From positions 1 through 20,674 of IMG/VR virus record IMGVR_UViG_3300025125_001199: a DNA stretch of 20,674 bases. One strand, given 5' to 3'. The stretch comes from a virus. Position numbers and translations under genes: made by a program. Under the pieces are notes generated by a model. That model saw only the letters and a program-made list of their open reading frames with translations, ran no database searches and had not been told where the DNA came from. How positions within the stretch are numbered: position 1 is the first letter of the stretch; every line of letters starts with the position of its first letter. Positions 1,589-15,354 of the stretch are shown here, piece by piece.

Positions 1589-1596
1589 ATTAAATA
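1589..1596 (+). promoter_or_regulatory. T4-late-like promoter of the tail tube gene
   Basis: ATTAAATA differs at one position from the T4 late -10 consensus TATAAATA when aligned on TAAATA. It ends 5 bases before the ATG at 1602. T4 late transcripts start about 6 bases after the last A of this box, which would put +1 on the A of the start codon. No Shine-Dalgarno sequence lies between them. Confidence 0.6.
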
Positions 1597-1601
1597 TTTG
1601 T

Positions 1602-2147
1602 ATGCCAGATGTACAACAGACAATTTCTGATTTTTACAGAGTAGCAATCGAAAGAGATTTCGCAAGAGATTTTCAGTTCAGAGTGTTATCAATAGACGGC
1701 GGTGGCGCCACGGACACAACATTTGATGAAGACGACTTAGTATATTGCACAGCAGCACAGTTGCCAGAAAGAACAATATCCAACGTAGCAGTACCTTACA
1801 TGGGGCTGCAGTTTAATCTCCCCGGTAGTGTGACATACCCAGGAAGCGAAGGTTACACACTTGCATTCTATTGTGATCAAAACTCACAAATAAGACAAAA
1901 ATTTGAAGATATGTCAAGAGATATTTTCGACGATGCAACAAGCACAGGTAACTATTTTGCTCCAAGACAATCAGCATCTGTAAATCTTGTTCAACTAGAT
2001 ACTCAATTAGATGAAATAGCGAGTTATAAATTAGTTGGCACTTCTATTAGAAGTGTTGGCCCAATAGATTATAACATATCAGCTGGAACAGGAGCAACAG
2101 TCACCTTCACAGCTACAATGGCTTACCATTACTGGCAGCGAAACTAA
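1602..2147 (+). CDS. 19: Tail tube protein, T4 gp19 family
   Basis: This is the major subunit of the rigid inner tail tube through which DNA passes. The 181-residue product is close to T4 gp19 (about 163). It opens with MPDVQQTISDFYRVAIERDF and ends in TFTATMAYHYWQRN, with the AVPYMGLQFNLPGS and YPGSEGYTLAFYCD segments typical of the gp19 fold. An upstream TTG (1581) is in frame but lies in the terminator T-tract, so ATG 1602 is chosen. There is no recognisable ribosome binding site; a late-type promoter ends 5 bases before the ATG, so the message is probably leaderless. It sits between the sheath gene and baseplate genes, as expected for a tail module. Confidence 0.92.
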   Translation: MPDVQQTISDFYRVAIERDFARDFQFRVLSIDGGGATDTTFDEDDLVYCTAAQLPERTISNVAVPYMGLQFNLPGSVTYPGSEGYTLAFYCDQNSQIRQKFEDMSRDIFDDATSTGNYFAPRQSASVNLVQLDTQLDEIASYKLVGTSIRSVGPIDYNISAGTGATVTFTATMAYHYWQRN

Positions 2148-2166
2148 TTAATTTAGCCACATTTCA

Positions 2167-2174
2167 TTAAAATG
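2167..2174 (+). promoter_or_regulatory. Weak late-promoter-like box before the GNAT gene
   Basis: TTAAAATG ends 5 bases before the GTG start at 2180. This is the same spacing as the better boxes at 1589, 4337 and 4576, but the match to TATAAATA is poorer. It is supported mainly by the repeated spacing. Confidence 0.3.
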
Positions 2175-2179
2175 TATTT

Positions 2180-2539
2180 GTGAAGTGTAAAAATAACCTC
2201 CAAGTAAAAGTAACTTCAGAATTCAAAGGAGAGGTTTGGCACTTTAGACTAATGAAAATGAACAGATATAAAAATTCCGAAATAGGTAAATTAGAAGTAG
2301 ACTTTGCTCGAGAAAAAAAATATTTTGTCATTTCTTCACACGTAGATCTTAGATATAGAAACAAAGGTTTTGGTAAATTACTTTACGAAAAAGCATTAAA
2401 AAAATTTGGTAAATTAAAAACAGATTATTTCGAAGCGAGCGAAGACGCGCAACGTGTGTGGATATCGTTATGTAAAAAATATAAAAGTAAAAAATTCTTT
2501 TTTATCGGGACGCTTACCCTTTATAACAAACTTAAATAA
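2180..2539 (+). CDS. Small GNAT-family N-acetyltransferase
   Basis: This is a probable acetyl-CoA-dependent acyltransferase of 119 residues; its substrate is unknown. The GNAT acetyl-CoA loop is visible as VDLRYRNKGFGKLLYE (residues 55-70), giving R60-x2-G63-x-G65 followed by a helix, preceded by a strand-like segment KYFVISSHV. The start is GTG at 2180; no ATG gives a full-length product. The gene is embedded among tail genes and is likely expressed late with them, so a role in modifying a virion or host protein is possible but only inferred. The lysine-rich C-terminus (KKYKSKKFFF) is notable. At 119 residues it is slightly shorter than typical GNATs (about 140-160). Confidence 0.7.
   Translation: MKCKNNLQVKVTSEFKGEVWHFRLMKMNRYKNSEIGKLEVDFAREKKYFVISSHVDLRYRNKGFGKLLYEKALKKFGKLKTDYFEASEDAQRVWISLCKKYKSKKFFFIGTLTLYNKLK
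2531..2538 (+). promoter_or_regulatory. Late-promoter-like box before the TTG-started baseplate gene
   Basis: CTTAAATA ends 7 bases before the TTG at 2546 and overlaps the stop codon of the preceding gene. It contains the TAAATA core of T4 late promoters. Confidence 0.4.
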
Positions 2540-2545
2540 TTAAAA

Positions 2546-3424
2546 TTGAATAATCCTTTTACAGAAGCAATTAGAGGTTTTGGTGATAATGTATCTGCGT
2601 TATTAAAAGGTACTAACCCTTTAACACAACCATCTATTACATCATTATTTGGATTTACAGTCCCTGGGGTACCTTTAATTAGCACAAGAGATTATTTTTT
2701 AACTCAAATGGAATCGTGGTTTACCACCATACCAATGCGTACGCAATGGATGGTGTTAATTGAAAATTACCCCATTTTATTACAAACAGCTGTTATACAA
2801 AATTTAGAAAGAACTGAAGGTAATTATCACAACTTTGATATATCACAAGCAGTAAGTATTTTAAAATCGTATCCTTTGAATAAAGTAACTGGCTGTATTT
2901 TTGCTCAAGGAGCGAGTATACCGGGGTTGGAAATGTTAGAGGTAAATAGAGATAAAGCTTTTGGAGACAAACAGAGAGGGTTTATTCCTGGCCTTATAGC
3001 AACTGGTAGACAACCATTTAGTGATTTAACTTTAGAATTTAGAGAAACAAATACAAGCTTCGTTGATTTTGTTGTTAGACCTTGGACAATATTAGCTGAA
3101 CATTTTGGTATGGTAGCAAGACCACCCGGTGATCCAAGAAATGTGGGCACTACAATTACTATACTACAATTTACTAGAACATATCACAACATAGCACAAA
3201 TACCAAGAAAAATTTGGACCTTTTATAACTGTATGCCTACTTCGATTAGTAATAAAAATTTAACATACGATGCAGAAGCACTAGAAATTAATTCTACAGA
3301 ATGGGCATTTTCAAATTACGCTGTAAGAAATAATTTATATTTACCTTTACCCGATATTATTAACAAAATCAGTTCTAAAGGTTGGAAAAGTTTAATTCCT
3401 AAAATATCCCCATTTCAAAATTAG
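2546..3424 (+). CDS. Tail-tube-like baseplate protein (T4 gp48/gp54 family)
   Basis: This is a likely baseplate tail-tube initiator or cap, the adaptor between baseplate hub and tail tube. The product is 292 residues (T4 gp54 is 320). The central and C-terminal parts follow the tail-tube-fold pattern of gp54: FSDLTLEFRETNTSFVDFVV (strand plus helix), then PRKIWTFYNCMPTSISNKNL and LTYDAEALEINSTEWAFSNY, which parallels the 'SxxxLxYD...F.V.FAY' ending of gp54. The N-terminus MNNPFTEAIRGFGDNVSALL is probably amphipathic. The only start that preserves it is TTG at 2546; the next in-frame ATG would remove about 50 residues. Whether it is gp48 or gp54 cannot be settled by eye. Confidence 0.62.
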   Translation: MNNPFTEAIRGFGDNVSALLKGTNPLTQPSITSLFGFTVPGVPLISTRDYFLTQMESWFTTIPMRTQWMVLIENYPILLQTAVIQNLERTEGNYHNFDISQAVSILKSYPLNKVTGCIFAQGASIPGLEMLEVNRDKAFGDKQRGFIPGLIATGRQPFSDLTLEFRETNTSFVDFVVRPWTILAEHFGMVARPPGDPRNVGTTITILQFTRTYHNIAQIPRKIWTFYNCMPTSISNKNLTYDAEALEINSTEWAFSNYAVRNNLYLPLPDIINKISSKGWKSLIPKISPFQN

Positions 3425-3428
3425 GATC

Positions 3429-3456
3429 TTGACTATTTTAAAATAGATTATATTAT
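3429..3456 (+). promoter_or_regulatory. Sigma70-type promoter TTGACT-16-TATTAT
   Basis: The -35 is TTGACT (3429-3434), the spacer is 16 bases and the -10 is TATTAT (3451-3456). The -10 ends 6 bases before the ATG at 3463, so transcription should start at or next to the start codon. There is no Shine-Dalgarno sequence. Confidence 0.6.
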
Positions 3457-3462
3457 TAGCAA

Positions 3463-4338
3463 ATGGTAAACACCTACATGTACCCTGTCATTATTACAAG
3501 CGATAGGCAAGTAACATGTAGAGAAATAACTAACTATGAATATAAAAACATTTTAAAATTTATTAAAAATGAGGACGACGAAAATCTTTGCAACTATTTT
3601 GAATTTTTGGTATACGATATTTGCAAAACACAGTGTTCATTAAACTACATAGATAAAATTTTAATTTTACTCTCTTCTAGAATCATATCAATTGGTGAAA
3701 ATATAATCATAACGGGTAAAACAGATATTCAAAACACTATATCATTAAGCAACGTATCCAAAACTATAATAGAAAATTATGTACCTGAAATTAAAGAAAT
3801 AGAAGATAAAGAAAATAACATAAAAGTAGAAATTAGTTATCCTTACTTAATTAGCAATAGAGATTTGTTATATGATAAAATATATTCAATCTCTATTGCA
3901 GGCAATAAGGTTATCATGAATGATACTGAACCTGAAATGAGAGATAAAATTTTGAATTATATACCAGCCAAATTAACAAAAAAGATAATGAGAAATATTA
4001 AAAGCGATTCTAACTATAAACAAATAAAACTGTTTTCATGGGTTTACGAAGAAGGTCAAAAAATTGACTTTTATTTTTCATTTAATTCAAAACAAAATTT
4101 TGATTTTTTAAAAGCGTGTTTTAGTGAGGATTTAAAAAATATATATTACTATGAATATCTATGTTGTAGCAAATTACATATACCGTTATCAGATTTTTTA
4201 TACCACATGAGTCCTGTTGAATCTATATTACAGATAAAGACATTAGCAAAAGAAATAAAAGAACAAAACGACGCACAGAAAAAAGCCAACGAAACAAAAC
4301 CGATCACGCCTCAGCCTGGATTAGGCGCACCCCGGTAA
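3463..4338 (+). CDS. Putative baseplate hub protein, possibly T4 gp26-like
   Basis: This 291-residue protein is not firmly recognised. It lies immediately after the gp48/54-like gene in a tail/baseplate block. Its length, lack of signal peptide or membrane segments, and C-terminal pattern (YYYEYLCCSKLHIPLSDFLY followed by MSPVES) resemble the small hub proteins of the gp26 type in marine T4-like phages. The last 30 residues are charged and then Pro-rich (ETKPITPQPGLGAPR) and look disordered. A TTGACT-16-TATTAT promoter stands 6 bases before the ATG, so it may be transcribed separately from the late tail genes. It could instead be a chaperone or an unrelated protein; a profile search against T4 gp26 (baseplate) would decide. 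Confidence 0.45.
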   Translation: MVNTYMYPVIITSDRQVTCREITNYEYKNILKFIKNEDDENLCNYFEFLVYDICKTQCSLNYIDKILILLSSRIISIGENIIITGKTDIQNTISLSNVSKTIIENYVPEIKEIEDKENNIKVEISYPYLISNRDLLYDKIYSISIAGNKVIMNDTEPEMRDKILNYIPAKLTKKIMRNIKSDSNYKQIKLFSWVYEEGQKIDFYFSFNSKQNFDFLKACFSEDLKNIYYYEYLCCSKLHIPLSDFLYHMSPVESILQIKTLAKEIKEQNDAQKKANETKPITPQPGLGAPR

Positions 4339-4344
4339 TAAATG
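4337..4344 (+). promoter_or_regulatory. Late-promoter-like box AATAAATG
   Basis: This box overlaps the TAA stop codon of the preceding gene and ends 5 bases before the ATG at 4350. It has the same spacing as at 1589 and 4576. Confidence 0.45.
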
Positions 4345-4349
4345 ATTGT

Positions 4350-4577
4350 ATGGCACTTGAAACTGACGAAATCAAAAAAATCAATGATCTTTATAAAGAA
4401 CTAGATCAAAAAGAGCTGAAAATTCAAAGTATTGATAATAATTTAGTTACAGCTCAAAATACAGTTAACTTTTTAAATCAATCTATTGAAAACTATAAAG
4501 AAGTTATTTCTGAACTATCTGGTAAATTAGATACGGTTATAGACCTGTTAACAAAAACATCAAAAGCTAAAAAGTAA
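4350..4577 (+). CDS. Small coiled-coil protein of unknown function
   Basis: This 75-residue, highly charged, almost wholly helical protein has heptad-like spacing of I, L and V from about residue 8 to 68 (for example KKINDLYKELDQKELKIQSI and ELSGKLDTVIDLLTK), so an extended coiled coil is likely. It ends in a lysine-rich tail (KTSKAKK). There is no signal peptide or membrane segment. It sits in the late structural block and is preceded by a late-type box with 5-base spacing to its ATG. It may be a small structural or assembly factor, but no family is recognised. Confidence 0.7.
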   Translation: MALETDEIKKINDLYKELDQKELKIQSIDNNLVTAQNTVNFLNQSIENYKEVISELSGKLDTVIDLLTKTSKAKK

Positions 4578-4583
4578 TAAATA
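4576..4583 (+). promoter_or_regulatory. Late-promoter-like box AATAAATA
   Basis: AATAAATA is a 7/8-type match to TATAAATA. It overlaps the stop codon of the preceding gene and ends 5 bases before the ATG at 4589, predicting +1 on the start codon. Confidence 0.55.
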
Positions 4584-4588
4584 CTTTT

Positions 4589-4834
4589 ATGCCTGATGAG
4601 CTACTCACTGTAGATATACATAACGATTATACGTTAAAAACAATCGACATTAGGTCGGGTGCCATTAAAACTATTAGACAAGTAGGTGGTAAAATTATTA
4701 GAGGTCCCGTTTTAATCGGACGAGACAGCGTTTCAATTACAGTAGAAACACCAACGGGAAAAATAGGAAAAATTTTAAAATTACCCAATCTTCTTATTGT
4801 AAAATCATTTCCCGCAGGCGATGGTTCGACTTGA
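4589..4834 (+). CDS. Small beta-rich protein of unknown function
   Basis: This 81-residue protein has alternating hydrophobic and polar residues typical of beta strands (TLKTIDIRSGAIKTIRQVGG and VLIGRDSVSITVETPTGKIG). It has no membrane segment, signal peptide or cysteine. It may be a small structural protein, because it lies in the tail block behind a late-type promoter box. The start codon has no ribosome binding site. Its TGA stop codon is contained in the TTGACT -35 box of the next gene. No family is recognised. Confidence 0.65.
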   Translation: MPDELLTVDIHNDYTLKTIDIRSGAIKTIRQVGGKIIRGPVLIGRDSVSITVETPTGKIGKILKLPNLLIVKSFPAGDGST

Positions 4835-4858
4835 CTTATTTAAATTATACTTTAATAT
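4831..4858 (+). promoter_or_regulatory. Sigma70-type promoter TTGACT-16-TAATAT
   Basis: TTGACT (4831-4836), 16 bases, TAATAT (4853-4858), then 6 bases to the ATG at 4865. The -35 contains the TGA stop codon (4832-4834) of the upstream gene. Confidence 0.55.
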
Positions 4859-4864
4859 ATGTCT

Positions 4865-5401
4865 ATGAACCCGTTACTAACGAGCTTAAGTGAACACAAA
4901 ATAGATAATGAAAAATACCGTATATCAACGGAATTTTTTACAAACTACTCTTTTTTGTTTTATGGCTTTGAGATAAAAAATAAATTTGACGAATCTAGGC
5001 TTCTTATAAACAAAAAAATATCACCAATAAAATTTTCACATTTAGTACGTACTAACGAAGGTATTAAAATCAAACATTTTTATGGTGTAATATGTAAAGG
5101 GAACGCTATATATAGAATCATTTCTAAAAAATTAGCTTACGCATCACACAAAGAAAAATATACAATGAGCTTTGATAACTACAGACATATGATGTCTGAG
5201 TTTAATGTTAGCACTAGCAGCAGCTATGGTAAATATTCAATAGGTTTGTATCCTTTTGATAGCCTTTCTGATATGTCAGATAATGTTAAATTTAATTATG
5301 AAGATTTTTTTGCAAATAAAGATATTCCATTCTATGAAAGAATGGCTGGTTTAACTTCTTATATAGTTTGTGATACATCTAACCTAATAGAAGAAATCTA
5401 A
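4865..5401 (+). CDS. Protein of unknown function (178 residues)
   Basis: The gene is not recognised. The product is soluble and mixed alpha/beta, with aromatic-rich segments (TEFFTNYSFLFYGFEIKNKF), a central Ser-rich stretch (NVSTSSSYGKYSIG) and no signal peptide. Two ATG codons are possible, at 4859 and 4865. The second is preferred because it lies 6 bases after the -10 of the TTGACT-16-TAATAT promoter, the spacing seen at other starts here, while the first would lie immediately against the -10. It closes the tail block, and a 181-base gap follows. A structural role is possible but not shown. Confidence 0.65.
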   Translation: MNPLLTSLSEHKIDNEKYRISTEFFTNYSFLFYGFEIKNKFDESRLLINKKISPIKFSHLVRTNEGIKIKHFYGVICKGNAIYRIISKKLAYASHKEKYTMSFDNYRHMMSEFNVSTSSSYGKYSIGLYPFDSLSDMSDNVKFNYEDFFANKDIPFYERMAGLTSYIVCDTSNLIEEI

Positions 5402-5582
5402 TATTTATTAAAAATCATACAAAAAGTTCATTTTTGATTAAATAGAAACAATTTGCAAAAGGGAAATTAACTCAAACTAGCTAACCACCTAGGGGGTCTT
5501 TACTTTACCCAAAAAAACCCTAAAAAAATCAAAAATTCCGGTGTAAAAACCGGGTTAAGAGCTTAAATTAAGACATATCAAG
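5402..5582. other. Intergenic region before nrdJ, with short hairpins and a lone late-type box
   Basis: No gene is visible in these 181 bases. An ATTAAATA box at 5437-5444 resembles the late promoters but has no start codon at the usual distance. TAGGG (5490-5494) can pair with CCCTA (5518-5522), enclosing GGT/ACC. CCGGT (5538-5542) pairs with ACCGG (5549-5553) around a six-base loop. Neither is followed by a T-run, so they do not look like terminators. Nothing resembling a cobalamin riboswitch B12 box was seen, although the downstream gene is a B12 enzyme. Confidence 0.4.
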
Positions 5583-7439
5583 ATGGACATTTCAACGAAA
5601 ATACTTTCAGACATAACAGTACATAACAAGTATGCAAAATATTTAGAAAAACAACAAAGACGCGAAACATGGAATGAAATCGTTTCAAGAAATAAAAAAA
5701 TGCACATTAAAAAATATCCTAAATTAAAAGATGAAATAAACAATGTGTATAAATTAGTAACAGCCAAAAAAGTATTACCTTCTATGAGATCGCTTCAATT
5801 TGGAGGTGCTCCTATTGATAGAAACCCATCTAAAATTTTTAATTGTGCTTACTTACCTTGTGACGATTATCGTTCATTTAGTGAAGCAATGTTCTTATTG
5901 TTAGGAGGAACAGGTGTTGGTTATTCGGTTCAAACGCATCACGTCGACCAATTATCCGAAATAAACAAACCAAACGATAAAAGAACAAGAAGGTATCTAA
6001 TTGGTGATTCAATCGAAGGTTGGGCAGACGCAGTAAAAGCCTTATTAGAATGTTATTTCAAAGGATTATCTAAAATTCGTTTCGACTATAGCGATATTAG
6101 ACCTAAAGGAGCATTATTAGTAACATCAGGGGGTAAAGCTCCTGGTCCTCAACCACTAAGAGAATGTTTAGTCAAAATAGACGGTATTTTATCACAAAAA
6201 GAAGATAATAGCAAATTAACATCAATTGAATGTCATGATATTATGTGTCACATGGCTGACGCAGTACTAGCGGGTGGTATAAGAAGAGCAGCTATGATTT
6301 CCCTCTTCTCTGCTGATGATGATGAAATGATCGCATGTAAAGCAGGTAATTGGTGGGAAAAGAATGCGCAAAGAGGGAGAGCTAATAATTCAGCTGTATT
6401 AATGCGTCATAAAATTACTAAAGATTATTTTTTAAACTTATGGAAGAGAATAGAAGCTTCTGGATCAGGTGAACCGGGGTTTTATTTCTCAAATGATAAA
6501 GATTGGGGTACCAATCCTTGTTGTGAAATTGGGCTAAGACCATACCAATTCTGTAATCTCACAGAAATTAATGCAAGTAACATAAAAGATCAAAAAGATC
6601 TTGAAGAACGAGCTCGAGCAGCAGCATTTATTGGTACATTGCAAGCTTCATATACAGACTTTCACTATCTTCGTCCTATATGGCAAAGAAACACAGAAAA
6701 AGATGCGTTATTAGGTGTCAGTATGACAGGTATAGGTTCAGGAGCAGTACTTAGCTTAAATTTAAAAGCAACAGCAGAAGCAGTTAAAAAAGAAAATTCA
6801 AGAGTTGCAAAAATTATAGGAATAAACGAAGCAGCAAGAACTACTTGTGTTAAACCTGCAGGCACAACTTCACTAGTGTTAGGTACCTCTTCTGGTATCC
6901 ATGCATGGCACAATGATCATTATATTCGTAGAATTCGTGTCGGTAAAAATGAAGCACTTTATAATTACCTTCATTCAAATCATAAGGATTTAGTGGAAGA
7001 TGAATTTTTTAGACCGCACGACACTGCCGTCATTGGTGTACCTCAAAGAGCACCAGACGGTGCAATTTATAGAACAGAATCAGCTTTACAATTATTAACT
7101 AGAATTAAAAAAATTACTGACGAATGGGTATCAAATGGTCATAGAAAAGGTGCAAACAAACACAATGTATCAGCAACCATATCTATTAGAGAACACGAAT
7201 GGACAGATGTGGGTGAATGGATGTGGGGAAACACAGCTTCATTTAATGGGTTGTCTGTATTACCATATGAAGGGGGATCATATAAACAAGCCCCCTTTGA
7301 AGATTGCTCAAAAGAAACTTATGAAGCATTAATTAGTTCTTTAAAGAACGTAGACTTAACTCTTGTAAGAGAAGGAGCTGATGATACAGTCCTTTCCAAT
7401 GAACTAGCATGTGCTGGTGGAGCTTGTGAGATTTCATAG
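5583..7439 (+). CDS. nrdJ: Adenosylcobalamin-dependent class II ribonucleotide reductase (monomeric RTPR type)
   Basis: The enzyme reduces ribonucleoside triphosphates to deoxyribonucleotides using a B12-generated thiyl radical, supplying dNTPs for phage DNA synthesis without oxygen or a small subunit. The product is 618 residues, shorter than Lactobacillus RTPR (about 739). Visible motifs are NCAYLP with C88 (one of the redox pair), NPCCEIGL with N311, C313 (thiyl radical) and E315, then QFCNLTEIN, the phosphate loop KPAGTTS (423-429), and the C-terminal reducing pair C610/C615 in CAGGACEIS. All catalytic residues appear intact. The start ATG has no clear ribosome binding site. The next gene's GTG overlaps its stop codon by one base. 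Its placement directly after tail genes, away from other replication genes, is unusual. Confidence 0.93.
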   Translation: MDISTKILSDITVHNKYAKYLEKQQRRETWNEIVSRNKKMHIKKYPKLKDEINNVYKLVTAKKVLPSMRSLQFGGAPIDRNPSKIFNCAYLPCDDYRSFSEAMFLLLGGTGVGYSVQTHHVDQLSEINKPNDKRTRRYLIGDSIEGWADAVKALLECYFKGLSKIRFDYSDIRPKGALLVTSGGKAPGPQPLRECLVKIDGILSQKEDNSKLTSIECHDIMCHMADAVLAGGIRRAAMISLFSADDDEMIACKAGNWWEKNAQRGRANNSAVLMRHKITKDYFLNLWKRIEASGSGEPGFYFSNDKDWGTNPCCEIGLRPYQFCNLTEINASNIKDQKDLEERARAAAFIGTLQASYTDFHYLRPIWQRNTEKDALLGVSMTGIGSGAVLSLNLKATAEAVKKENSRVAKIIGINEAARTTCVKPAGTTSLVLGTSSGIHAWHNDHYIRRIRVGKNEALYNYLHSNHKDLVEDEFFRPHDTAVIGVPQRAPDGAIYRTESALQLLTRIKKITDEWVSNGHRKGANKHNVSATISIREHEWTDVGEWMWGNTASFNGLSVLPYEGGSYKQAPFEDCSKETYEALISSLKNVDLTLVREGADDTVLSNELACAGGACEIS

Positions 7440-8395
7440 TGAAGAAATTAGCTAAAATCTTTTACTACCAAAACGGGTCAGGAGACGGAAAAGATGGTGA
7501 ATTATTATTTGACTGTATAAAAGAACGATATGACGTTATTATGCAAGATTGCCAAAATGCTAATGAAAAAAAATATGAAAATGGGCGATTTTTATATGAT
7601 TTTAAACAACCTGAATCTATAGACTTAGGTATTTTTAACAATGTTCATGGTAGACCGGACCATATAAAAAAGAAAATATTAATTCTAAATGAAGAATGGT
7701 TATATACCAATGATTTAGAAGACCTAAAAAATAGTAAAAATTACTATAATTATGTTGTTGTTAAATCGGAATATTCTAAAAAATTATTATCACCTTACCA
7801 TAAAAATGTGATAGTTCTCCCCTTTTGGTCTATTGATAGATATAACCCAACTAAAATAAAAAATGAAACGTTTCATTTTGCTGGTCGCTCAATTCAAAAA
7901 GGAACAGAAATGTTGGTAAATGATCCAGATATTACCGTGCTTGATAGTACTAATAGATTTGCAAAATTCGCCAAATGTAATTATCTTAATTATTATGTTA
8001 GCGATGAAGATCTTAATGAAATGCTAAATTCATATAATTTACATTTATGTACTTCTTTATATGAAGGTCACGGGCACTATATGTATGAATCTTTAAGTTG
8101 TGGGAAAAGTATTTTGTGTTCCAAAATCCCTGTGTGGGAAGAATTAATCGATCCAGATATGGTGAATTTTATTACCGTAAAGGAAATAGACTTTGACTCT
8201 AGATTCAGATATTTTATAAACAAAAAAAACGGTACTTACCCTCTTAGAAAAGGATTTATTATTGACGAAGATGAATTAAAAGAAAAAATCCAAGAACACA
8301 AAAAAGACAAAATAGATATGAAAAAACGCGAATATTGCCTAGACATTAACAAAAAAAGAAGAGCAGTATTTAAAAAGTTTTTACTTGACCTATAA
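7439..8395 (+). CDS. GT-B family glycosyltransferase (GT4-like)
   Basis: This is a probable retaining glycosyltransferase that moves a sugar from a nucleotide donor to an unknown acceptor. The 318 residues end in a Rossmann-like domain with HFAGRSIQKGTEML (donor-site Gly/Arg/Lys region, about 146-159) and the diagnostic E-x7-E motif in SLYEGHGHYMYESLSCGKS (E209 and E217), followed by IPVWEELI. The start is GTG overlapping the nrdJ TAG stop (taGTG), so translation is probably coupled; no ATG gives the full N-terminus. The N-terminal half is shorter than in most GT4 enzymes. It belongs with the other glycosyltransferases of the window. Confidence 0.78.
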   Translation: MKKLAKIFYYQNGSGDGKDGELLFDCIKERYDVIMQDCQNANEKKYENGRFLYDFKQPESIDLGIFNNVHGRPDHIKKKILILNEEWLYTNDLEDLKNSKNYYNYVVVKSEYSKKLLSPYHKNVIVLPFWSIDRYNPTKIKNETFHFAGRSIQKGTEMLVNDPDITVLDSTNRFAKFAKCNYLNYYVSDEDLNEMLNSYNLHLCTSLYEGHGHYMYESLSCGKSILCSKIPVWEELIDPDMVNFITVKEIDFDSRFRYFINKKNGTYPLRKGFIIDEDELKEKIQEHKKDKIDMKKREYCLDINKKRRAVFKKFLLDL

Positions 8396-8413
8396 ACGGA
8401 TTTATCATATAAT
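8385..8413 (+). promoter_or_regulatory. Sigma70-type promoter TTGACC-17-TATAAT
   Basis: The -35 TTGACC (8385-8390) lies inside the end of the glycosyltransferase gene. After a 17-base spacer comes a perfect TATAAT (8408-8413), and the ATG at 8421 follows 7 bases later. The 13-mer CATATAATAACTG (8406-8418) recurs exactly at 14400-14412 before another start codon. Confidence 0.75.
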
Positions 8414-8420
8414 AACTGGA

Positions 8421-8966
8421 ATGGATAAAGACCATCAATATGTTTTATGCTCTACAAGAACAGTCTTTACAGGGTTAATAGAAAGAATGTCTGGGTGGGA
8501 AAAAGACTACTGTCAGAATGATATTTTAGATTATTGGGATAAAAATAGCTGGTGGGATTATGAACAAGGAGCCTACGTAACTATGAAAATATCGGATCTC
8601 GGAAAAGGTGATGTTGTAGCTGGTTGCGCGTATAACGTAATAGGGGATAATCTTCACATCAAAAGACTTTTTACTAGTACAGATTATAGAAAACAAGGCC
8701 ATGCAAAAGATCTATTAGAACATACCTGGAGACACTCTTTTTCTCTTGCAAGGTTTTTAAGAATGTATTGTGATAAAGATGCTATCCCATTTTACGAAAA
8801 ACTAGGTTTCCGGTTCATCGACTACAATAAACATAATTATGGTTATGTATTTCAGCCTATGCTTTTTAGAGATATGGACTTTACTCTCAACCATTGCAAA
8901 CCTTATAAAATGGAAAATCTTCTAGATGAACAAGATAGGACATTTATAAAATACGATTTTATATAA
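8421..8966 (+). CDS. GNAT-family N-acetyltransferase
   Basis: This 181-residue acetyl-CoA-dependent acyltransferase has an unknown substrate. The core is clear: IKRLFTSTDYRKQGHAKDLL (residues 81-99) with R90-K-Q-G93-H-A95, and the typical C-terminal AIPFYEKLGFRF (121-132). A TTG 36 bases upstream is in frame, but ATG 8421 is chosen because TATAAT ends 7 bases before it, so the upstream TTG would lie before the transcription start. The transcript should be essentially leaderless. It is the second GNAT in the window and could acetylate a sugar or a protein N-terminus; neither is shown. Confidence 0.8.
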   Translation: MDKDHQYVLCSTRTVFTGLIERMSGWEKDYCQNDILDYWDKNSWWDYEQGAYVTMKISDLGKGDVVAGCAYNVIGDNLHIKRLFTSTDYRKQGHAKDLLEHTWRHSFSLARFLRMYCDKDAIPFYEKLGFRFIDYNKHNYGYVFQPMLFRDMDFTLNHCKPYKMENLLDEQDRTFIKYDFI

Positions 8967-8983
8967 ATAGATTTTGAAGGAGT

Positions 8984-8991
8984 TATAAATC
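8984..8991 (+). promoter_or_regulatory. Late-promoter-like box TATAAATC upstream of the hsp20 leader
   Basis: This is a seven-of-eight match to the T4 late consensus TATAAATA. The expected +1 is near 8997, one base before the first stem of the pseudoknot candidate. Confidence 0.4.
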
Positions 8992-8996
8992 AATAG

Positions 8997-9048
8997 GTTC
9001 AAGGAGGTGGGTTGGCGGGAAAAACACTTGAATTCGCCCGGGTGTGTG
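8997..9048 (+). ncRNA. Candidate H-type pseudoknot leader with a perfect but orphan Shine-Dalgarno
   Basis: TTCAAG (8998-9003) pairs perfectly with CTTGAA (9027-9032). Within that loop CGGG (9016-9019) can pair with CCCG (9037-9040), or GGCG with CGCC (9014-9017/9035-9038), which crosses the first stem and gives an H-type pseudoknot. The sequence is far more GC-rich than its surroundings. It includes AAGGAGGTG (9001-9009), a perfect anti-16S match partly buried in the first stem. The only ORF placed to use it is TTG 9012 to TAA 9053 (13 codons). It ends at the late box of hsp20. It may be a regulatory leader or small RNA; the family is unknown to me, and Rfam models of phage leaders such as wcaG should be tested. 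Confidence 0.4.
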
Positions 9049-9056
9049 ATTAAATA
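9049..9056 (+). promoter_or_regulatory. Late-promoter-like box ATTAAATA before hsp20
   Basis: This is the same octamer as before the tail tube gene (1589-1596). It ends 8 bases before the ATG at 9065, giving a leader of at most about 3 bases. Confidence 0.5.
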
Positions 9057-9064
9057 TTAACGTC

Positions 9065-9484: not shown

Positions 9485-9499
9485 AAAATGCTAATTCAG

Positions 9500-9521
9500 G
9501 GCGGCCTTAGGGCCGCCTTTT
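9500..9521 (+). terminator. Strong rho-independent terminator after hsp20
   Basis: GGCGGCC (9500-9506) and GGCCGCC (9511-9517) form a perfect seven-pair GC stem with a TTAG loop, followed by TTTT. It is among the most GC-rich hairpins in the window. Confidence 0.9.
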
Positions 9522-9523
9522 CC

Positions 9524-9551
9524 TTGATTTTTACAGATTCCACCTTACAAT
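9524..9551 (+). promoter_or_regulatory. Sigma70-type promoter TTGATT-16-TACAAT
   Basis: TTGATT (9524-9529), 16 bases, TACAAT (9546-9551), then 6 bases to the ATG at 9558. It starts immediately after the hsp20 terminator, so it opens the glycosyltransferase operon. Confidence 0.6.
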
Positions 9552-9557
9552 ATTTTC

Positions 9558-10466: not shown

Positions 10467-11139
10467 AAATAATATAGGGTTTAAACTAGCAGCTTTAGAC
10501 ACATATTTAAAACATGTCCCCGATAACATGGACATCTATTTCATTTATGGTGGAAACATTTCAAATGTGATACCATGTAAAAGAGCCGGAATATCTTATA
10601 CGGACATCTATATTAAGACACCCGACAGCATTTCCAACTTACACAAAAAACTATTCGGGTTTTTTAGAAAAATTGTAAACAAAGATTATACTCACGCTCT
10701 AAAAATAGACGACGATACATTTTTATATAACGTGGATACATTTTTAGAACACAAAATTTCCGGGGATTACGTGGGTAATAAAGTTTTAATAACTAATGAA
10801 GAGGTAATTAGAAATAAATTATGTACTTTGAAAAATTATAAAATTAGAAAAGCATATAAAGGTGAATTACCAAACCAGTATTGTTCAGGAGAATGTGTAA
10901 TTTTTAGTAAAAAAGCAATACAAACTATAGTTTCTTATAAAGGAAAAGAAAAGTATGAAAAATTCTCTTTAGAAGATGTCGTCATAGGAAATATTTTGCA
11001 AAAAAGTGATATTAAAATAAACCCAAACAAATTTCTTAACTACGAACACCCGGTTGAGATAAGAAAATTTTTTAACCTATATGATAAACATTATACAAAG
11101 ATAAATGAAGGGTTTATGCGTGATTGCACACAAACATAA
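10432..11139 (+). CDS. GT31-like glycosyltransferase (beta-1,3-galactosyltransferase type)
   Basis: This is a probable inverting GT-A enzyme that adds a hexose to an unknown acceptor. In the 235 residues the metal-binding DDD is at 93-95 in HALKIDDDTFLYNVDTF, followed by the family's acceptor-side YCSGECVIFSKKA (150-162) and the catalytic-loop EDVVIG (181-186). These correspond to the DDD, Y-x-x-G and EDVxxG motifs of the GT31 family. The ATG at 10432 lies inside the end of the upstream gene, so translation is probably coupled. The stop codon is directly abutted by the next gene's ATG (taaATG). A strong Shine-Dalgarno with a three-codon mini-ORF lies 27 bases upstream. Confidence 0.72.
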   Translation: MTKYALVILTSENNIGFKLAALDTYLKHVPDNMDIYFIYGGNISNVIPCKRAGISYTDIYIKTPDSISNLHKKLFGFFRKIVNKDYTHALKIDDDTFLYNVDTFLEHKISGDYVGNKVLITNEEVIRNKLCTLKNYKIRKAYKGELPNQYCSGECVIFSKKAIQTIVSYKGKEKYEKFSLEDVVIGNILQKSDIKINPNKFLNYEHPVEIRKFFNLYDKHYTKINEGFMRDCTQT

Positions 11140-11880
11140 ATGAACCTATACCCACATAATATATTAACAGGAAGTAAAGAAACGGTGAGCAAGACAGTAA
11201 TATTGGTACCATGTAATGGAGGGATTGATTTTAATGTTGACCGCAAACTTAGAGACCTAGAAAATATGGGGTATGAAGTGTGGCGAACACCAGGGTACTC
11301 AGCTATTGATCAGTGTAGATCAAGAATGGCTTATGATGCAGTTTATCGAAGAGACTTTGAAGAATTAATATGGGTAGATGGTGATGTGGGTTTTGAAATA
11401 GAAGACATAAAAAAATTACAAAACAGTGGAAAAGATATTATTGCCGGTGTTTACCCGTTTAAAGGCCACCCAGAAATGACATTCGACCCTTTGTACGACG
11501 AGCAAGAAATTATTTTTGGAGAAGGTGGAGGGGTACATGAAGTGCATTGTGTAGCCACCGGATTTTTATACACAAAAAAAAGTGTGTATACGTGTATGGT
11601 GAAAGAATTAGCTTTGCCTCTTTGTAATACTAGTTTTGATTGTCCTAGTTACCCGTGGTTTAGACCCAATGTGTGGCAAGAAGAAGATAGACATTATTAT
11701 CTCGGAGAAGATTTTTCTTTTTGCAAATATGCAAGACAGTGTGGGTATCAAATTTATGTAGATAGTACTATAAAGTTAACGCATTATGGAAAATATGGGT
11801 ATACATGGGAAGATCTTGCATATAAAAAGAAAAAAATTTCCAGTTTAAGGTATTGTAAAAATTGGTCCAGTGATAAATAA
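11140..11880 (+). CDS. GT-A fold glycosyltransferase
   Basis: This 246-residue protein shows the phage/bacterial GT-A pattern: an N-terminal nucleotide-binding strand KTVILVPCNGG, the segment AIDQCRSRMAYDAVYR, the DxD metal site in IWVDGDVGF (D80, D82), and near the C-terminus LGEDFSFCKYARQCGYQIYV followed by KLTHYGKYGY, the usual acceptor-side ED and His. The stop of the previous gene touches the ATG, so it is co-translated with the GT31-like gene. It is cysteine-rich for its size. Donor and acceptor are unknown. A GATAAATA late-type box for the downstream RNA overlaps its last codons. Confidence 0.75.
   Translation: MNLYPHNILTGSKETVSKTVILVPCNGGIDFNVDRKLRDLENMGYEVWRTPGYSAIDQCRSRMAYDAVYRRDFEELIWVDGDVGFEIEDIKKLQNSGKDIIAGVYPFKGHPEMTFDPLYDEQEIIFGEGGGVHEVHCVATGFLYTKKSVYTCMVKELALPLCNTSFDCPSYPWFRPNVWQEEDRHYYLGEDFSFCKYARQCGYQIYVDSTIKLTHYGKYGYTWEDLAYKKKKISSLRYCKNWSSDK
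11872..11879 (+). promoter_or_regulatory. Late-promoter-like box GATAAATA for the structured RNA
   Basis: GATAAATA is a seven-of-eight match to TATAAATA at the very end of the glycosyltransferase gene. The predicted +1 (6 bases on) is 11885, exactly the first base of the 12-pair stem. Confidence 0.4.
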
Positions 11881-11884
11881 TTTT

Positions 11885-11965
11885 AGCCATGCAGGCTGTT
11901 TAGTGGGCTATGATGTATGTGGTGGTACTTGTAGCTATTGTAGGTGGGCCTGCATGGTTTTTTTT
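11885..11965 (+). ncRNA. Candidate free-standing structured small RNA ending in a terminator
   Basis: Bases 11885-11896 pair with 11948-11959 in a 12-pair stem (one G-T wobble; core CCATGCAGGC/GCCTGCATGG) enclosing a G/T-rich 51-base loop. The stem runs into eight T residues (11958-11965), as in an intrinsic terminator. A late-type box predicts +1 at the first paired base, so promoter, structured body and terminator add up to an RNA of about 80 bases. An ordinary terminator with a long loop, or a short membrane peptide gene (11910-11984), are alternatives. I know of no matching RNA family. Confidence 0.4.
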
Positions 11966-11984
11966 GGCTTCAACTATATTATAG
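11910..11984 (+). CDS. Possible 24-residue membrane peptide overlapping the structured RNA
   Basis: ATG 11910 opens a 24-codon frame whose product is almost entirely hydrophobic (MMYVVVLVAIVGGPAWFF and six more residues), a plausible single membrane helix. No ribosome binding site is seen. It shares its bases with the stem-loop at 11885-11965, so at most one of the two readings may be functional. It is kept as a low-confidence candidate because a similar hydrophobic micro-ORF lies at 14292. Confidence 0.2.
   Translation: MMYVVVLVAIVGGPAWFFLASTIL
11975..11982 (+). promoter_or_regulatory. Probable -10 element TATATTAT
   Basis: A -10-like TATATT/TATTAT lies 6-8 bases before the ATG at 11989, matching the leaderless spacing elsewhere. 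No good -35 is visible at 15-17 bases, where the sequence is the T-run of the upstream stem-loop. Confidence 0.35.
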
Positions 11985-11988
11985 TTGT

Positions 11989-12192
11989 ATGACAACAATA
12001 AGCAATAAAGAACTTGCTCAATGGTTTGATACATCTTCTACTTTAATAACAGTATTAGAAGAATACAACGATAAATACCCACAAATAAATTTTGCTTCAG
12101 AAACAGCTCGACTACACTTAGCTGAATATCTCATAGAAAAAATTAAACTTCGAGATTATTATCGAGATAAAGAAAACAAGGAAGAAAAATGA
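11989..12192 (+). CDS. Small protein of unknown function preceding rmlA
   Basis: The 67-residue product is soluble, probably helical, with a charged C-terminus (RDKENKEEK). An in-frame ATG upstream at 11953 lies inside the stem-loop; ATG 11989 is preferred because it follows the -10 element at the usual distance and starts the charged, coding-like part. Its TGA stop overlaps the rmlA ATG (ATGA), and the rmlA ribosome binding site lies in its last codons, so the two are translated together. No family is recognised. The N-terminal SNKELAQWFDTSSTLITVLE could suggest a small helix-turn-helix-like segment, but this is weak. Confidence 0.65.
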   Translation: MTTISNKELAQWFDTSSTLITVLEEYNDKYPQINFASETARLHLAEYLIEKIKLRDYYRDKENKEEK

Positions 12193-13088
12193 AAGGTATA
12201 ATTTTAGCTGGCGGTGCAGGTACTAGAGTTTACCCGAGCACAAAAGTTATATCTAAACAACTTCTTCCAATTTACGATAAACCTACAATTTATTACCCTC
12301 TTGCAACACTAATAAAATTGGGCATTAAAGATATTATGATTATAACAAATGGGTTAGCTTATAATCATATTTTAGCTTTATTTAAAGAGTCAGGTTTGGA
12401 TACAAATTTATTAAACGGGGGTTGTAAAGAATATCTGGGTATTAATTTTGCATTTAGAGTTCAAAAAAAATCAGGTGGTATAGCAGAAGCACTAATTATA
12501 GCAGAAGAATGGCAGGGAGATGATGATGTATGTTTAATTTTAGGGGATAACATATTTACAGGTATAAAAAAGACTCCTTGGCCAGTAGAGTACGGAGCAT
12601 GTATAACAGGTTACAAAGTCAAAGACCCTCACCAATATGGGGTAGTGAGTGTTGAAGTAAATAAACACACAAAAATTAATGAAATCATGTCTATAGAAGA
12701 AAAACCCAAACATACAAATTCTAATTTAGCAGTAACGGGTATTTATTTTTATGACAATACTGCAGGAGAAAAAGCACTAGCATTAAAACCATCTGACAGA
12801 GGCGAATTAGAAATTACTGATTTAAACATTAGTTATTTGGACGAAGGTACTTTATGGTTTAATGAACACGACAGTAAATATGCATGGTTTGACACTGGTA
12901 ACCCAGATGAAATGTTTGCTGCTACTATGTTTATTAAATCAATACAAGATAGGACAAACTGCATGGTTGGGTGTATAGAGTATGAAAGTTATAATGCTGG
13001 AAATATAACCCAACCGCAATTTGAAAAAATTGTTAATAATATGCCTGAGTGTTTATATAAAGAAAAAATTAAACAAAGTTATTTTTAA
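12189..13088 (+). CDS. rmlA: Glucose-1-phosphate thymidylyltransferase (RmlA/RfbA)
   Basis: The enzyme joins dTTP and glucose-1-phosphate to give dTDP-glucose, the first step towards dTDP-rhamnose and related deoxysugars. The 299 residues match the usual length (about 290) and keep the family motifs: GGAGTR (8-13), SKQLLPIYDKPTIYYPL (22-38), LGDN (118-121), EEKP (170-173), RGELEITDLN (204-213) and WFDTG (233-237). It is preceded by a good ribosome binding site, AAGGAAG, four bases before the ATG, and overlaps the upstream gene by four bases. It is followed without a gap by a sugar kinase. The other dTDP-sugar genes (rmlB-D) are not in the window, so the product probably enters host pathways or more distant phage genes. 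Confidence 0.92.
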   Translation: MKGIILAGGAGTRVYPSTKVISKQLLPIYDKPTIYYPLATLIKLGIKDIMIITNGLAYNHILALFKESGLDTNLLNGGCKEYLGINFAFRVQKKSGGIAEALIIAEEWQGDDDVCLILGDNIFTGIKKTPWPVEYGACITGYKVKDPHQYGVVSVEVNKHTKINEIMSIEEKPKHTNSNLAVTGIYFYDNTAGEKALALKPSDRGELEITDLNISYLDEGTLWFNEHDSKYAWFDTGNPDEMFAATMFIKSIQDRTNCMVGCIEYESYNAGNITQPQFEKIVNNMPECLYKEKIKQSYF

Positions 13089-13888
13089 TGAAGGAAGTTT
13101 TAGTAATAGGGGATAATTGTACGGATGTTTTTGTGTACGGAAAAGTAAACCGGTTGTGTCCAGACGTACCAGCACCGGTTTTTTCCCCTACCAAAACAAT
13201 TACTGATAACGGGATGGCCGGGAATGTAGTTAGAAATTTTAAATCATTAGGTTTAGATGCCGACTTTATGTTCAATGTAACTGAAATGACAAAAATAAGA
13301 TATGTTGACGAACAAACCAACCATACATTTTTAAGAGTAGACGAAGGTGATATGGCGGAACCTTTTGGATCTAGTCCTGAAGTAATAAACTTTAATTTTG
13401 AACCAGGGGAGTGGAATGCAATTGTTATATCAGATTATTGTAAAGGATTTGTTACTGAAGAACTAATTCAATTTTGTTGCGAACATAACCCTAACGTTTT
13501 TATTGATACAAAAAAAGTTCTAGGAGATTTTTGCAAAAAAGCAAAAATAATTAAAATAAATGAACCTGAATATAATGATTTAAAAGGTAAAATTAATGAA
13601 GAAGAGTGGGAGGACAAACTTATTGTTACACTTGGTAAAAATGGGTGTAGATGGAAAGGTGCAGTATATTTGGTAGATCAAGTAGAGGTATTTGATCTAT
13701 GCGGCGCCGGGGATTCGTTCTTAGCTGCTTTAGTATACCAATATCTAAAAACAGATTGTATAATGGAATCAATATTTTTTGCAAATGATATGGCCAATCA
13801 GGTTGTACAAAAAAGAGGCGTAGTTGCTTGTTTTTCACGTACCAATGAAGAAGGTATAGAAGATTTAGTTAAAAAAATTAATGCTTGA
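13088..13888 (+). CDS. PfkB-family sugar kinase, heptose-7-phosphate kinase-like (HldE N-domain)
   Basis: This ribokinase-fold kinase resembles the N-terminal kinase domain of HldE, which phosphorylates heptose-7-phosphate for lipopolysaccharide precursors. Matches in order are GDNCTDVFVYGKVNRLCPDV (8-27, like GDxxLDxYxYGxVxRxxPEx), the MAGNVVRNFKSLG glycine/asparagine segment, VISDYCKGFVTEEL (112-126), DTKK, KINEPEY, VTLGKNG and the catalytic GAGDSF (206-211, base D209). At 266 residues it is shorter than a full kinase domain (about 315), and the cytidylyltransferase domain of HldE is absent. Its start overlaps the rmlA stop by one base. Substrate preference cannot be read from the sequence; other hexose kinases remain possible. 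Confidence 0.75.
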   Translation: MKEVLVIGDNCTDVFVYGKVNRLCPDVPAPVFSPTKTITDNGMAGNVVRNFKSLGLDADFMFNVTEMTKIRYVDEQTNHTFLRVDEGDMAEPFGSSPEVINFNFEPGEWNAIVISDYCKGFVTEELIQFCCEHNPNVFIDTKKVLGDFCKKAKIIKINEPEYNDLKGKINEEEWEDKLIVTLGKNGCRWKGAVYLVDQVEVFDLCGAGDSFLAALVYQYLKTDCIMESIFFANDMANQVVQKRGVVACFSRTNEEGIEDLVKKINA

Positions 13889-14105
13889 AATTAAAGAAAA
13901 AAATCTTATACAATTTACTAATTTGGTAAATGAATGTTGTGCGTTAATAGAAGATAGTTTGGTAGAAAAATTTTTAACTACACCGCATAGTTTTTTCAAC
14001 AATGAAACCCCTCTGGAGGAGTTTAATCAGTTTGGAAACGAAAAAATATTAAGACTATTATACTTTATTGAAATAGAAGAAGCAGATGTATTTGAAAATG
14101 TATGA
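13881..14105 (+). CDS. Small acidic protein of unknown function
   Basis: The 74-residue protein is helical and rich in Glu, Phe and Leu, with two adjacent cysteines near the N-terminus (NECCALIEDSLVEKF) and an acidic end (IEIEEADVFENV). It overlaps the kinase gene by 8 bases and is therefore probably translated by coupling. Its stop is 5 bases from tRNA-Leu. No family is recognised. Confidence 0.65.
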   Translation: MLEIKEKNLIQFTNLVNECCALIEDSLVEKFLTTPHSFFNNETPLEEFNQFGNEKILRLLYFIEIEEADVFENV

Positions 14106-14110
14106 ATTTA

Positions 14111-14197
14111 GCCGATGTGGTGGAATTGGTAGACACGAGAGACTTAAAATCTCTTTCCCGTTAGGGAGTGTGGGTTCAAGTCCCTCCATCGGTACCA
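14111..14197 (+). tRNA. tRNA-Leu (anticodon UAA)
   Basis: The acceptor stem GCCGATG pairs with CATCGGT (last pair G-U), followed by discriminator A and an encoded CCA. The D-arm region is TGGTGGAATTGGTAGACACG. The anticodon stem AGAGA/TCTCT holds loop CTTAAAA (anticodon TAA). A long class II variable arm follows, and the T-arm contains GGTTCAAGTCC. It reads UUA, a very frequent codon in this AT-rich genome. Confidence 0.96.
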
Positions 14198-14206
14198 TTT
14201 AATGAA

Positions 14207-14283
14207 GCTCCAGTAGCTCAATTGGATAGAGCATCTGCCTTCTAAGCAGAGGGTTACTGGTTCGAGTCCAGTCTGGAGTACCA
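14207..14283 (+). tRNA. tRNA-Arg (anticodon UCU)
   Basis: This 77-base cloverleaf has acceptor GCTCCAG/CTGGAGT, D-stem GCTC/GAGC, anticodon stem TCTGC/GCAGA with loop CTTCTAA (anticodon TCT), T-arm ACTGG-TTCGAGT-CCAGT, and an encoded CCA. It reads AGA, the dominant arginine codon in the surrounding genes. It lies 9 bases after tRNA-Leu, so both are probably cut from one transcript. Confidence 0.96.
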
Positions 14284-14291
14284 TTAAACAT

Positions 14292-14384
14292 ATGATAGGG
14301 TGGCATACCTGGTGGAATACGGTAAATGCAACTTATCTCCTTAGTTCTCCCCTATTTTTAATTGGTTTCTGTGTAGTCACTTGA
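14292..14384 (+). CDS. Probable 30-residue membrane micro-protein after the tRNAs
   Basis: ATG 14292 lies 8 bases after the encoded CCA of tRNA-Arg and opens a 30-codon frame. The product is a Trp-rich start (MIGWHTWWNTVNATYLL) followed by a hydrophobic helix (SSPLFLIGFCVVT). The TGA stop (14382-14384) lies inside the TTGATC -35 box of the next promoter, the same arrangement as for the genes ending at 4834 and 15595, which supports it as a real gene. The RNA can also fold: ATAGGG (14295-14300) with CCCTAT (14350-14355), enclosing GCAT-ACC/GGT-AA-ATGC, and a T-run follows, so a terminator-like role is an alternative. No family is recognised. Confidence 0.4.
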   Translation: MIGWHTWWNTVNATYLLSSPLFLIGFCVVT

Positions 14385-14407
14385 TCCTAGGGATAATTTC
14401 ATATAAT
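14381..14407 (+). promoter_or_regulatory. Sigma70-type promoter TTGATC-15-TATAAT
   Basis: TTGATC (14381-14386), 15 bases, perfect TATAAT (14402-14407), then 8 bases to the ATG at 14416. It shares CATATAATAACTG with the promoter at 8385-8413. Confidence 0.65.
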
Positions 14408-14415
14408 AACTGTAT

Positions 14416-14586
14416 ATGAGCGATCAGATTCCTTATTCGAAAGTCCAAAAAACAACGGTTCCTGCCAAAAAAGCAACAACCAAAACCATTAAACCTATTA
14501 ATAGGTCTGCCGGAAAAGGGGATAGTCCCAGGCCTAAAGATAGTAAAAATTATAACCACAATTATGAAAGTATAAAGTGGAATTAA
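14416..14586 (+). CDS. Small basic Lys/Thr/Pro-rich protein of unknown function
   Basis: The 56-residue product is strongly basic and probably disordered (VQKTTVPAKKATTKTIKPIN, then SAGKGDSPRPKDSKNYNHNY). The composition suggests binding to nucleic acid, but no domain is visible. The ATG lies 8 bases after a perfect TATAAT, with no ribosome binding site between, so it should be read from a nearly leaderless transcript. Its stop is one base from the dCMP deaminase ATG, so it heads that operon. Confidence 0.65.
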   Translation: MSDQIPYSKVQKTTVPAKKATTKTIKPINRSAGKGDSPRPKDSKNYNHNYESIKWN

Positions 14587-14587
14587 T

Positions 14588-15031
14588 ATGCCAAAACAAA
14601 ACGAACTAGACGAAACATATTTGCAAATGGCCAACACTTGGGGGTTGTTATCTAAAGCAAAAAGAAAAAAAGTTGGTTGTTTGATAGTAAAAAACGGACA
14701 AATCATTTCTGATGGTTATAATGGTACACCAGCTGGTTATGATAATAATTGTGAGTATGAAACTAGATTTGGATATGAAACTAAGCCAGAGGTGCTACAT
14801 GCTGAATCAAATGCATTAATGAAGTTAGCGAAGAGTACAAATAGTAGTGGTGGTTCTACAATTTATTTAACTATGAGCCCTTGCTTTGAGTGTGCTAAAC
14901 TAATTATACAAGCAGAGGTAAAAAGAGTCGTATATTCAGAAGAATATAGAAATACAGGGGGTATAGATTTTTTAAGAAAAAACGATATTGAATGTGTTTC
15001 AATGTTATTCACAGAAACAATTAAATTATGA
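14588..15031 (+). CDS. cd: dCMP deaminase
   Basis: This zinc enzyme deaminates dCMP to dUMP, feeding thymidylate synthesis; T4 carries the equivalent gene cd. In the 147 residues the zinc site is complete: H71-A-E73 in VLHAESNAL and P98-C99-x2-C102 in MSPCFECAK. The substrate-side N-terminal part, GCLIVKNGQIISDGYNGTPAG, is typical of deoxycytidylate deaminases. It is shorter than T4 Cd (193), probably lacking an insertion. It follows a small basic gene by one base and overlaps the PQ-loop gene by four (ATGA). Confidence 0.92.
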   Translation: MPKQNELDETYLQMANTWGLLSKAKRKKVGCLIVKNGQIISDGYNGTPAGYDNNCEYETRFGYETKPEVLHAESNALMKLAKSTNSSGGSTIYLTMSPCFECAKLIIQAEVKRVVYSEEYRNTGGIDFLRKNDIECVSMLFTETIKL

Positions 15032-15354
15032 ACGATCTATTAGCAATGGTATTTGGAGCAATAATGTCTTTTAGCTTTGCATTATGTTTTGCGCCACAAA
15101 TTTTTAGAATGTATAAAAATAAAAGTTCAAAAGACGTTTCATTGGGAATGATCTTTTTACAAGTGTCTGGTAACGTTGGCGGTTTGGGACTAGCATTTAC
15201 ATCACAAGGAAATATTTGGTTGTTTATAAACTATGGTTTTGGGTTATTAATGGCTGCATGTTTAATGGTAATATGGAACATGTTTCATATAAATAACAAT
15301 AGTGACCGACGATATCAAAGAAACAACCAGAAAAATTTCATTCGCGCATCTTGA
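15028..15354 (+). CDS. PQ-loop membrane protein, SemiSWEET-like
   Basis: The 108-residue product has three hydrophobic helices (about 4-27, 40-58 and 65-87) and the PQ-loop signature FAPQIFRMYKNKSSKDVSLG (residues 21-40; P23-Q24 and KSSKDVS). This matches the single-bundle SemiSWEET/PQ-loop proteins, which dimerise in the inner membrane to pass small solutes such as sugars. A C-terminal polar tail (NNNSDRRYQRNNQKNFIRAS) overlaps the next gene, and the tail may be shaped by that overlap. It starts inside the end of dCMP deaminase (ATGA). Transport substrate and direction are unknown. Confidence 0.72.
   Translation: MNDLLAMVFGAIMSFSFALCFAPQIFRMYKNKSSKDVSLGMIFLQVSGNVGGLGLAFTSQGNIWLFINYGFGLLMAACLMVIWNMFHINNNSDRRYQRNNQKNFIRAS
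15288..15295 (+). promoter_or_regulatory. Perfect T4 late promoter TATAAATA inside the PQ-loop gene
   Basis: This is an exact TATAAATA octamer. It ends 6 bases before the GTG at 15302, putting +1 at 15301-15302. It lies within the coding sequence of the upstream gene and lets the next gene be expressed late and separately. Confidence 0.7.

Follow-up and report, generated by a model that had tools for sequence, protein, structure and literature searches.

The 20,674-base stretch of viral DNA analysed here (hereafter, the window) raises the question of whether a T4-like phage places its promoters so that transcription begins on the start codon itself. The window is an IMG/VR viral contig with 32% G+C, in which homologues of the sheath, tube and baseplate proteins of T4-like contractile phages are all present: a T4-like tail sheath gene at positions 1–1524 (PHROG sheath, E = 1.3e-62), a gp19-like tail tube gene at 1602–2147 on the plus strand (PHROG tail tube, E = 4.4e-20), a gene of the T4_baseplate family at 3463 (Pfam PF12322) and, on the minus strand, a baseplate OB-domain protein (Phage_base_V in Pfam). 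Other genes encode ribonucleotide reductase, Hsp20, dCMP deaminase, and glycosyl- and sulfotransferases, and there are two tRNAs, the only Rfam matches in the window. The segment at 14284–14365, after the tRNA-Arg gene, is tRNA-like by eye (GGGTGGCATACCTGGTGGAATACGG...) and was called by neither ARAGORN nor Rfam. No close isolate was found among 50,697 phage records, in which the best sheath matches were below 60% identity. As for the host, an exact search of genome contigs for the tRNA-Arg gene returned no match, a sheath-profile scan of genome contigs returned only three remote matches (28–30% identity), none of them useful, and blastn of both tRNAs against plasmids and phages matched many unrelated genera.

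Promoter boxes before start codons in the window

The original prediction, read by eye from the sequence, placed T4-type late boxes exactly 5 bases before three ATG codons and a perfect box 6 bases before a GTG. Direct reading agreed at all four starts, all on the plus strand. TAAATA at 1591–1596, within the octamer ATTAAATA at 1589–1596, ends 5 nt before the ATG of the tail tube gene at 1602, which is predicted to be leaderless and late. At the same distance, TAAATG at 4339–4344 (one mismatch; octamer AATAAATG at 4337–4344) precedes ATG 4350, and TAAATA at 4578–4583 (octamer AATAAATA at 4576–4583) precedes ATG 4589. TAAATA at 15290–15295, in the full octamer TATAAATA at 15288–15295, ends 6 nt before GTG 15302.

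Three weaker boxes had also been proposed, and two of them were retained. TAAATA at 2533–2538 (plus strand) ends 7 nt before TTG 2546, and in orthologs the box stands 6–7 nt before GTG or ATG. Before ATG 9065 (Hsp20), TTGAAT-16-TTAAAT at 9028–9056 (plus strand) overlaps TAAATA at 9051–9056, which ends 8 nt before the ATG, and this promoter could belong to either the late or the sigma70 class. The third, before 2180, was dropped; no acceptable box is found there or in the relatives. About 103 nt of non-coding sequence before hsp20 (8956–9058) shows 95% identity between contigs, although their Hsp20 proteins share only 62%. This block contains a perfect AAGGAGGTGG that is not positioned before a start; we claim no translational role for this SD (Shine-Dalgarno)-like sequence, and the copy in the relative G003 keeps the block, not the SD letters.

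A second set of window starts carries sigma70-type promoters, again on the plus strand. At seven or eight starts a –10 hexamer ends 6–8 nt upstream, mostly with a –35 element 15–17 nt further up, corresponding to the sigma70 arrangement of TTGACA and TATAAT about 17 nt apart, with a 15-nt spacer at a few sites. They are TTGACT-16-TATTAT at 3429–3456, 6 nt before ATG 3463; TTGACC-17-TATAAT at 8385–8413, 7 nt before ATG 8421 (acetyltransferase); TTGACT-16-TAATAT at 4831–4858, 6 nt before ATG 4865; TTGATC-16-TATAAT at 15592–15619, 6 nt before ATG 15626; TTGATT-16-TACAAT at 9524–9551, 6 nt before ATG 9558; TTGATC-15-TATAAT at 14381–14407, 8 nt before ATG 14416, which is kept in relatives; and TTGAAT-15-TATAAT at 17081–17107, 7 nt before ATG 17115. 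A –10-like TATTAT at 11977–11982, without a good –35 element, ends 6 nt before ATG 11989.

We compared these counts with dinucleotide shuffles of the 60-nt regions upstream of 28 window starts (2000 shuffles). TAAATA occurred at spacers of 5–8 nt before five starts (shuffle mean 0.23, maximum 3; no shuffle reached 5), and –10 hexamers were placed before eight (mean 0.55, maximum 4; 0/2000). A generic promoter scan of the whole window, in contrast, found 77 sites, fewer than the 94.6 in shuffles, and the signal resides only in position relative to starts. SD 4-mers at window starts were at background (2 versus 2.0), in line with the claim that these starts lack an SD sequence. The original prediction concerned late genes; its start-proximal late boxes stand, but the placement is not confined to late genes, as host sigma70-type promoters are placed likewise.

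Start-proximal boxes and Shine-Dalgarno sequences in related phages

The relatives were viral contigs with a related sheath gene, together with longer contigs of seven of them, and starts were taken from a simple gene/ORF caller. The sheath was used to delimit the clade because a collection made through ribonucleotide reductase brings in other phages, in which SD sequences are strong. That alternative set was rejected as a clade definition: it is dominated by other phages, and its leading signal is the SD (AGGAGA). It served as a positive control, in that the method detects the SD as the top signal where one exists.

The positional motif analysis proposed with the original prediction was strongly positive in the relatives, with a mode of 5 nt. 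TAAATA stood 5–8 nt before the start in 434 of 1287 genes from 111 related loci, whereas SD 5-mers occurred at background in the same genes (51 versus 49.7 expected), and SD sequences were absent above background at every gene position in these loci. In every relative contig TAAATA was concentrated at spacers of 5–8 nt, most often exactly 5, and SD 4-mers were at background. In G001, 23 of 107 genes had TAAATA before the start against a background of 1.1, and in G008 the figures were 36 of 192 against 1.4; –10 hexamers near starts were likewise enriched in G008 (37 versus 7.4). Chance and A/T richness as the source of the boxes were ruled out by the shuffles together with an anagram test, in which TAAATA at spacer 5 (115 starts) exceeded every anagram by more than 4:1 (next best, 26). 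Compaction of short intergenic regions was also ruled out; the clustering at 5–8 nt persists among genes whose upstream gap is at least 60 nt.

Two further features of the relatives were noted. Some members encode a homolog of ribosomal protein bS21 (G010, G016, G018 and, weakly, G015). Divergent late boxes are also arranged head to head, with about 10 nt between them, where neighbouring genes point in opposite directions (near 91270–91300 in G008, and similarly in G001, G004 and G009), giving two start-codon-proximal promoters per short gap.

Predicted RNA starts, transcription units and promoter classes

In standard numbering, the late octamer extends from –13 to –6 and the –10 hexamer from –12 to –7, and a late spacer of 5 nt or a –10 spacer of 6 nt therefore puts +1 on the A of the ATG. 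These are the modal spacers (115 of 217 late starts at 5 nt; 85 of 150 –10 starts at 6 nt). Start sites favoured by bacterial polymerase have a purine at +1 preceded by a pyrimidine at –1, and a pyrimidine precedes 94% of spacer-5 late starts (n = 115), compared with 52% of starts without a box; at spacer-6 –10 starts the proportion is 78%. For gene 1602, TAAATA, 5 nt and ATG are kept in 12 of 12 distinct orthologous regions, down to 66% identity, while the spacer letters vary and the flanks are unrelated. The spacing, the initiator pattern and the conservation at gene 1602 are three independent signs that RNA starts on the start codon. The leaderless late mRNAs of the original prediction gain support from the –1 pyrimidine, from this conservation and from the gp55 and gp45 genes of relatives described below, and its zero-leader reading fits the 5-nt mode. 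It fits less well at spacers of 6–8 nt, where the initiator pattern is weaker or shifted and some mRNAs may carry leaders of 1–3 nt instead; at spacers 7 and 8 the pyrimidine–purine step tends to lie 6 nt beyond the box, and the leader would then be 2–3 nt long.

The boxes are distributed according to position in the transcription unit. Among 343 first-in-unit genes, 182 had a box and nine an SD 4-mer, whereas 207 of 231 coupled genes (gap of at most 5 nt) had no box. Even by loose criteria, 103 of the 343 first-in-unit calls lacked one, and several of these are apparently miscalled genes. No promoter box stands at the ATG of the ribonucleotide reductase gene (5583), which follows a 181-nt gap (5402–5582) that may be a regulated leader. 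The gap has the same length in G001 and matched no Rfam family.

We consider it probable, at roughly 0.85, that promoter-proximal genes of both classes have switched clade-wide to leaderless mRNAs (leaders of 0–3 nt) and that distal genes are translationally coupled. The main competing explanation, to which we give about one chance in ten, is that the boxes are promoters but most genes are translated from longer read-through mRNAs, SD-independently at A/U-rich sites, the start-proximal promoters being minor. The units are short and densely packed, leaders of up to 3 nt are indistinguishable from zero, and the lack of an SD at any gene position means that ribosomes must start SD-free on some leadered or coupled sites, all of which agree with read-through. 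The boxes, however, occur mainly before first-in-unit genes and are lacking before coupled ones, and the exact 5-nt spacer and –1 pyrimidine require selection for a start site at the ATG, which favors the leaderless reading.

A much less probable explanation is that the A/T-rich hexamers are an unstructured translation-initiation context and not promoters. The genomes have 28–39% G+C, and initiation sites are generally A/T-rich. The excess of TAAATA over its anagrams argues against this explanation, and both classes behave as real promoters in their sequence features. A TTGACA-like –35 element (at least 5/6 matches) was found at 29 of 127 –10 starts (expected 2.6; maximum of 200 shuffles 7), but at only six of 132 late starts, near chance (expected 2.5); T4-type late promoters are expected to have no –35 element (PMC2988020). 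Promoter class, moreover, tracks gene function: structural genes had 52 late and three sigma70 boxes (52 of 55 boxed structural genes late), whereas replication genes had none and 23, respectively. The late box also matches the T4 late consensus: the TAAATA core is preceded by A/C and A, and, with +1 on the ATG's first base, the 5-nt spacer places the end of the box at –6. Four relatives (G001, G008, G009 and G010) encode the late sigma factor family gp55 (E = 1e-24 to 1e-30), and gp45 is found in three (G001, G002 and G004). The window contig has no gp55 gene; since it is a fragment, the gp55 of its own genome is not seen, and we infer that this genome carries one.

Least probable of all is that the true start codons lie further downstream, giving mRNAs with ordinary leaders, for although start calls were made by a simple rule, ortholog N-termini are conserved from the first codon (MPDV/MADV in gene 1602), SD sequences are not above background, and at 4859/4865 the –10 placement rule selects 4865, the start conserved in orthologs and the one that fits leaderless spacing, not the first ATG at 4859.

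The preferred reading, leaderless initiation at promoter-proximal genes, leads to the following model. In a large clade of uncultivated T4-like phages, transcription would start on, or about 3 nt from, the start codon. Host RNA polymerase would transcribe non-virion genes, DNA replication genes among them, from a sigma70-type promoter whose –10 element ends 6–8 nt before the ATG, and the phage late sigma factor gp55 would serve the virion genes from a T4-type box. This box ends 5 nt from the ATG, which puts the standard +1 on the A of that codon. The resulting 5΄-AUG mRNAs would have no SD and would be initiated as leaderless mRNAs, while downstream genes, which abut or overlap the preceding gene, are presumably translated by coupling, as judged from gene spacing. 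In the simplest model, each promoter gives one leaderless initiation, and the later genes of the unit are reached by translational coupling. The box placement, the two promoter classes, the lack of an SD, the conservation and the –1/+1 initiator pattern are visible in the sequence itself, and it is from these features that we infer the actual 5΄ ends, leaderless translation, coupling and timing; promoters upstream or read-through could also yield leadered copies. A bolder possibility, which we regard as doubtful, is that the clade has abandoned SD initiation entirely and actively steers host ribosomes to 5΄-AUG mRNAs during infection, for example by its own bS21 or another factor; the promoter on every start codon would then be a takeover mechanism, going beyond a match to an SD-poor host.

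Known systems and the meaning of the predicted leaderless placement

T4 late transcription, which involves gp55, the short, divergent co-activator gp33 and gp45, resembles that predicted for the clade in using a TATA-like element of 8 bp, roughly one helical turn ahead of the transcription start, without a –35 element (PMC2988020). In both, late promoters stand before virion genes, and relatives in the clade have homologs of gp55 and gp45. The first two box positions are A/C then A in the clade, but T then A in T4. The contrast with T4 drawn by the original prediction also holds: under the same treatment, T4 had no TAAATA at 5–8 nt and 18 at 15–30 nt, with SD motifs at 78 of 140 starts, whereas clade boxes lie 5–8 nt from the start and have no SD. 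Boxes lay at 15–30 nt in P-SSM2 and mostly so in P-SSM4, a Campylobacter phage and a single-cell marine virus; Syn9 and Ochrobactrum OC had none at 5–8 nt (small counts).

In the Pelagibacter phage HTVC008M and other pelagimyophages (PMC7029224), some of the late boxes are likewise separated from the ATG by exactly 5 nt. HTVC008M (100 kb) has nine such boxes, with SD sequences at 59 of 116 starts and no –10 placement at the ATG. Unlike the clade, pelagimyophages keep an SD at about half or more of their genes, have many late boxes 15–30 nt upstream and do not place –10 boxes at the ATG. Contigs with related portal genes (73 in all) had 29 starts in a sharp peak at 5 nt, with a –1 pyrimidine at 29 of 29, alongside a leadered SD majority. 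Two kinds of late start thus occur in pelagimyophages (loci L228–L307, and L143 and L147 for HTVC008M), one with 5 nt from box to ATG and a –1 pyrimidine and the other leadered with an SD.

In bacteria, the accepted way to recognize leaderless genes in silico is by a promoter element about 12 nt from the start codon (PMC3160421, PMC12340547), and in the clade the hexamer begins 11–14 nt upstream of this codon. Deinococcus-Thermus and Actinobacteria have leaderless genes that similarly carry TANNNT/TATAAT about 12 nt upstream and no SD (PMC3160421, PMC12340547), but the clade differs from them in being low-G+C phages with a clear –35 element and a second, phage-encoded sigma system placed likewise. 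Leaderless transcripts are known from lambda (PMC3160421) and have been remarked on for phages in general (PMC5312081), sharing with the clade an mRNA that begins at the start codon. In the open-access papers searched, we found no description of leaderless placement as the norm for both promoter classes in a T4-type clade.

The phenomenon is larger than the original prediction had it, comprising a second, sigma70 set of starts and a clade-wide extent. The rule of box, 5 nt and ATG would map promoters, operons and start codons in uncultivated phages, would even indicate temporal class, and would be useful where promoter prediction has failed; for pelagimyophages, prediction of middle and late promoters was reported as unsuccessful (PMC7029224). 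The mixed state of pelagimyophages, including the cultured HTVC008M, makes the question testable now. For the hosts, the prediction is that ribosomes must accept leaderless mRNAs efficiently. T4 late transcription and the leadered T4 mRNAs with ribosome-binding sites are textbook cases; a widespread marine and freshwater clade appears to keep the T4 late promoter but to have fused it to the start codon, which suggests that leaders and SD sequences are dispensable for an entire phage programme of gene expression.
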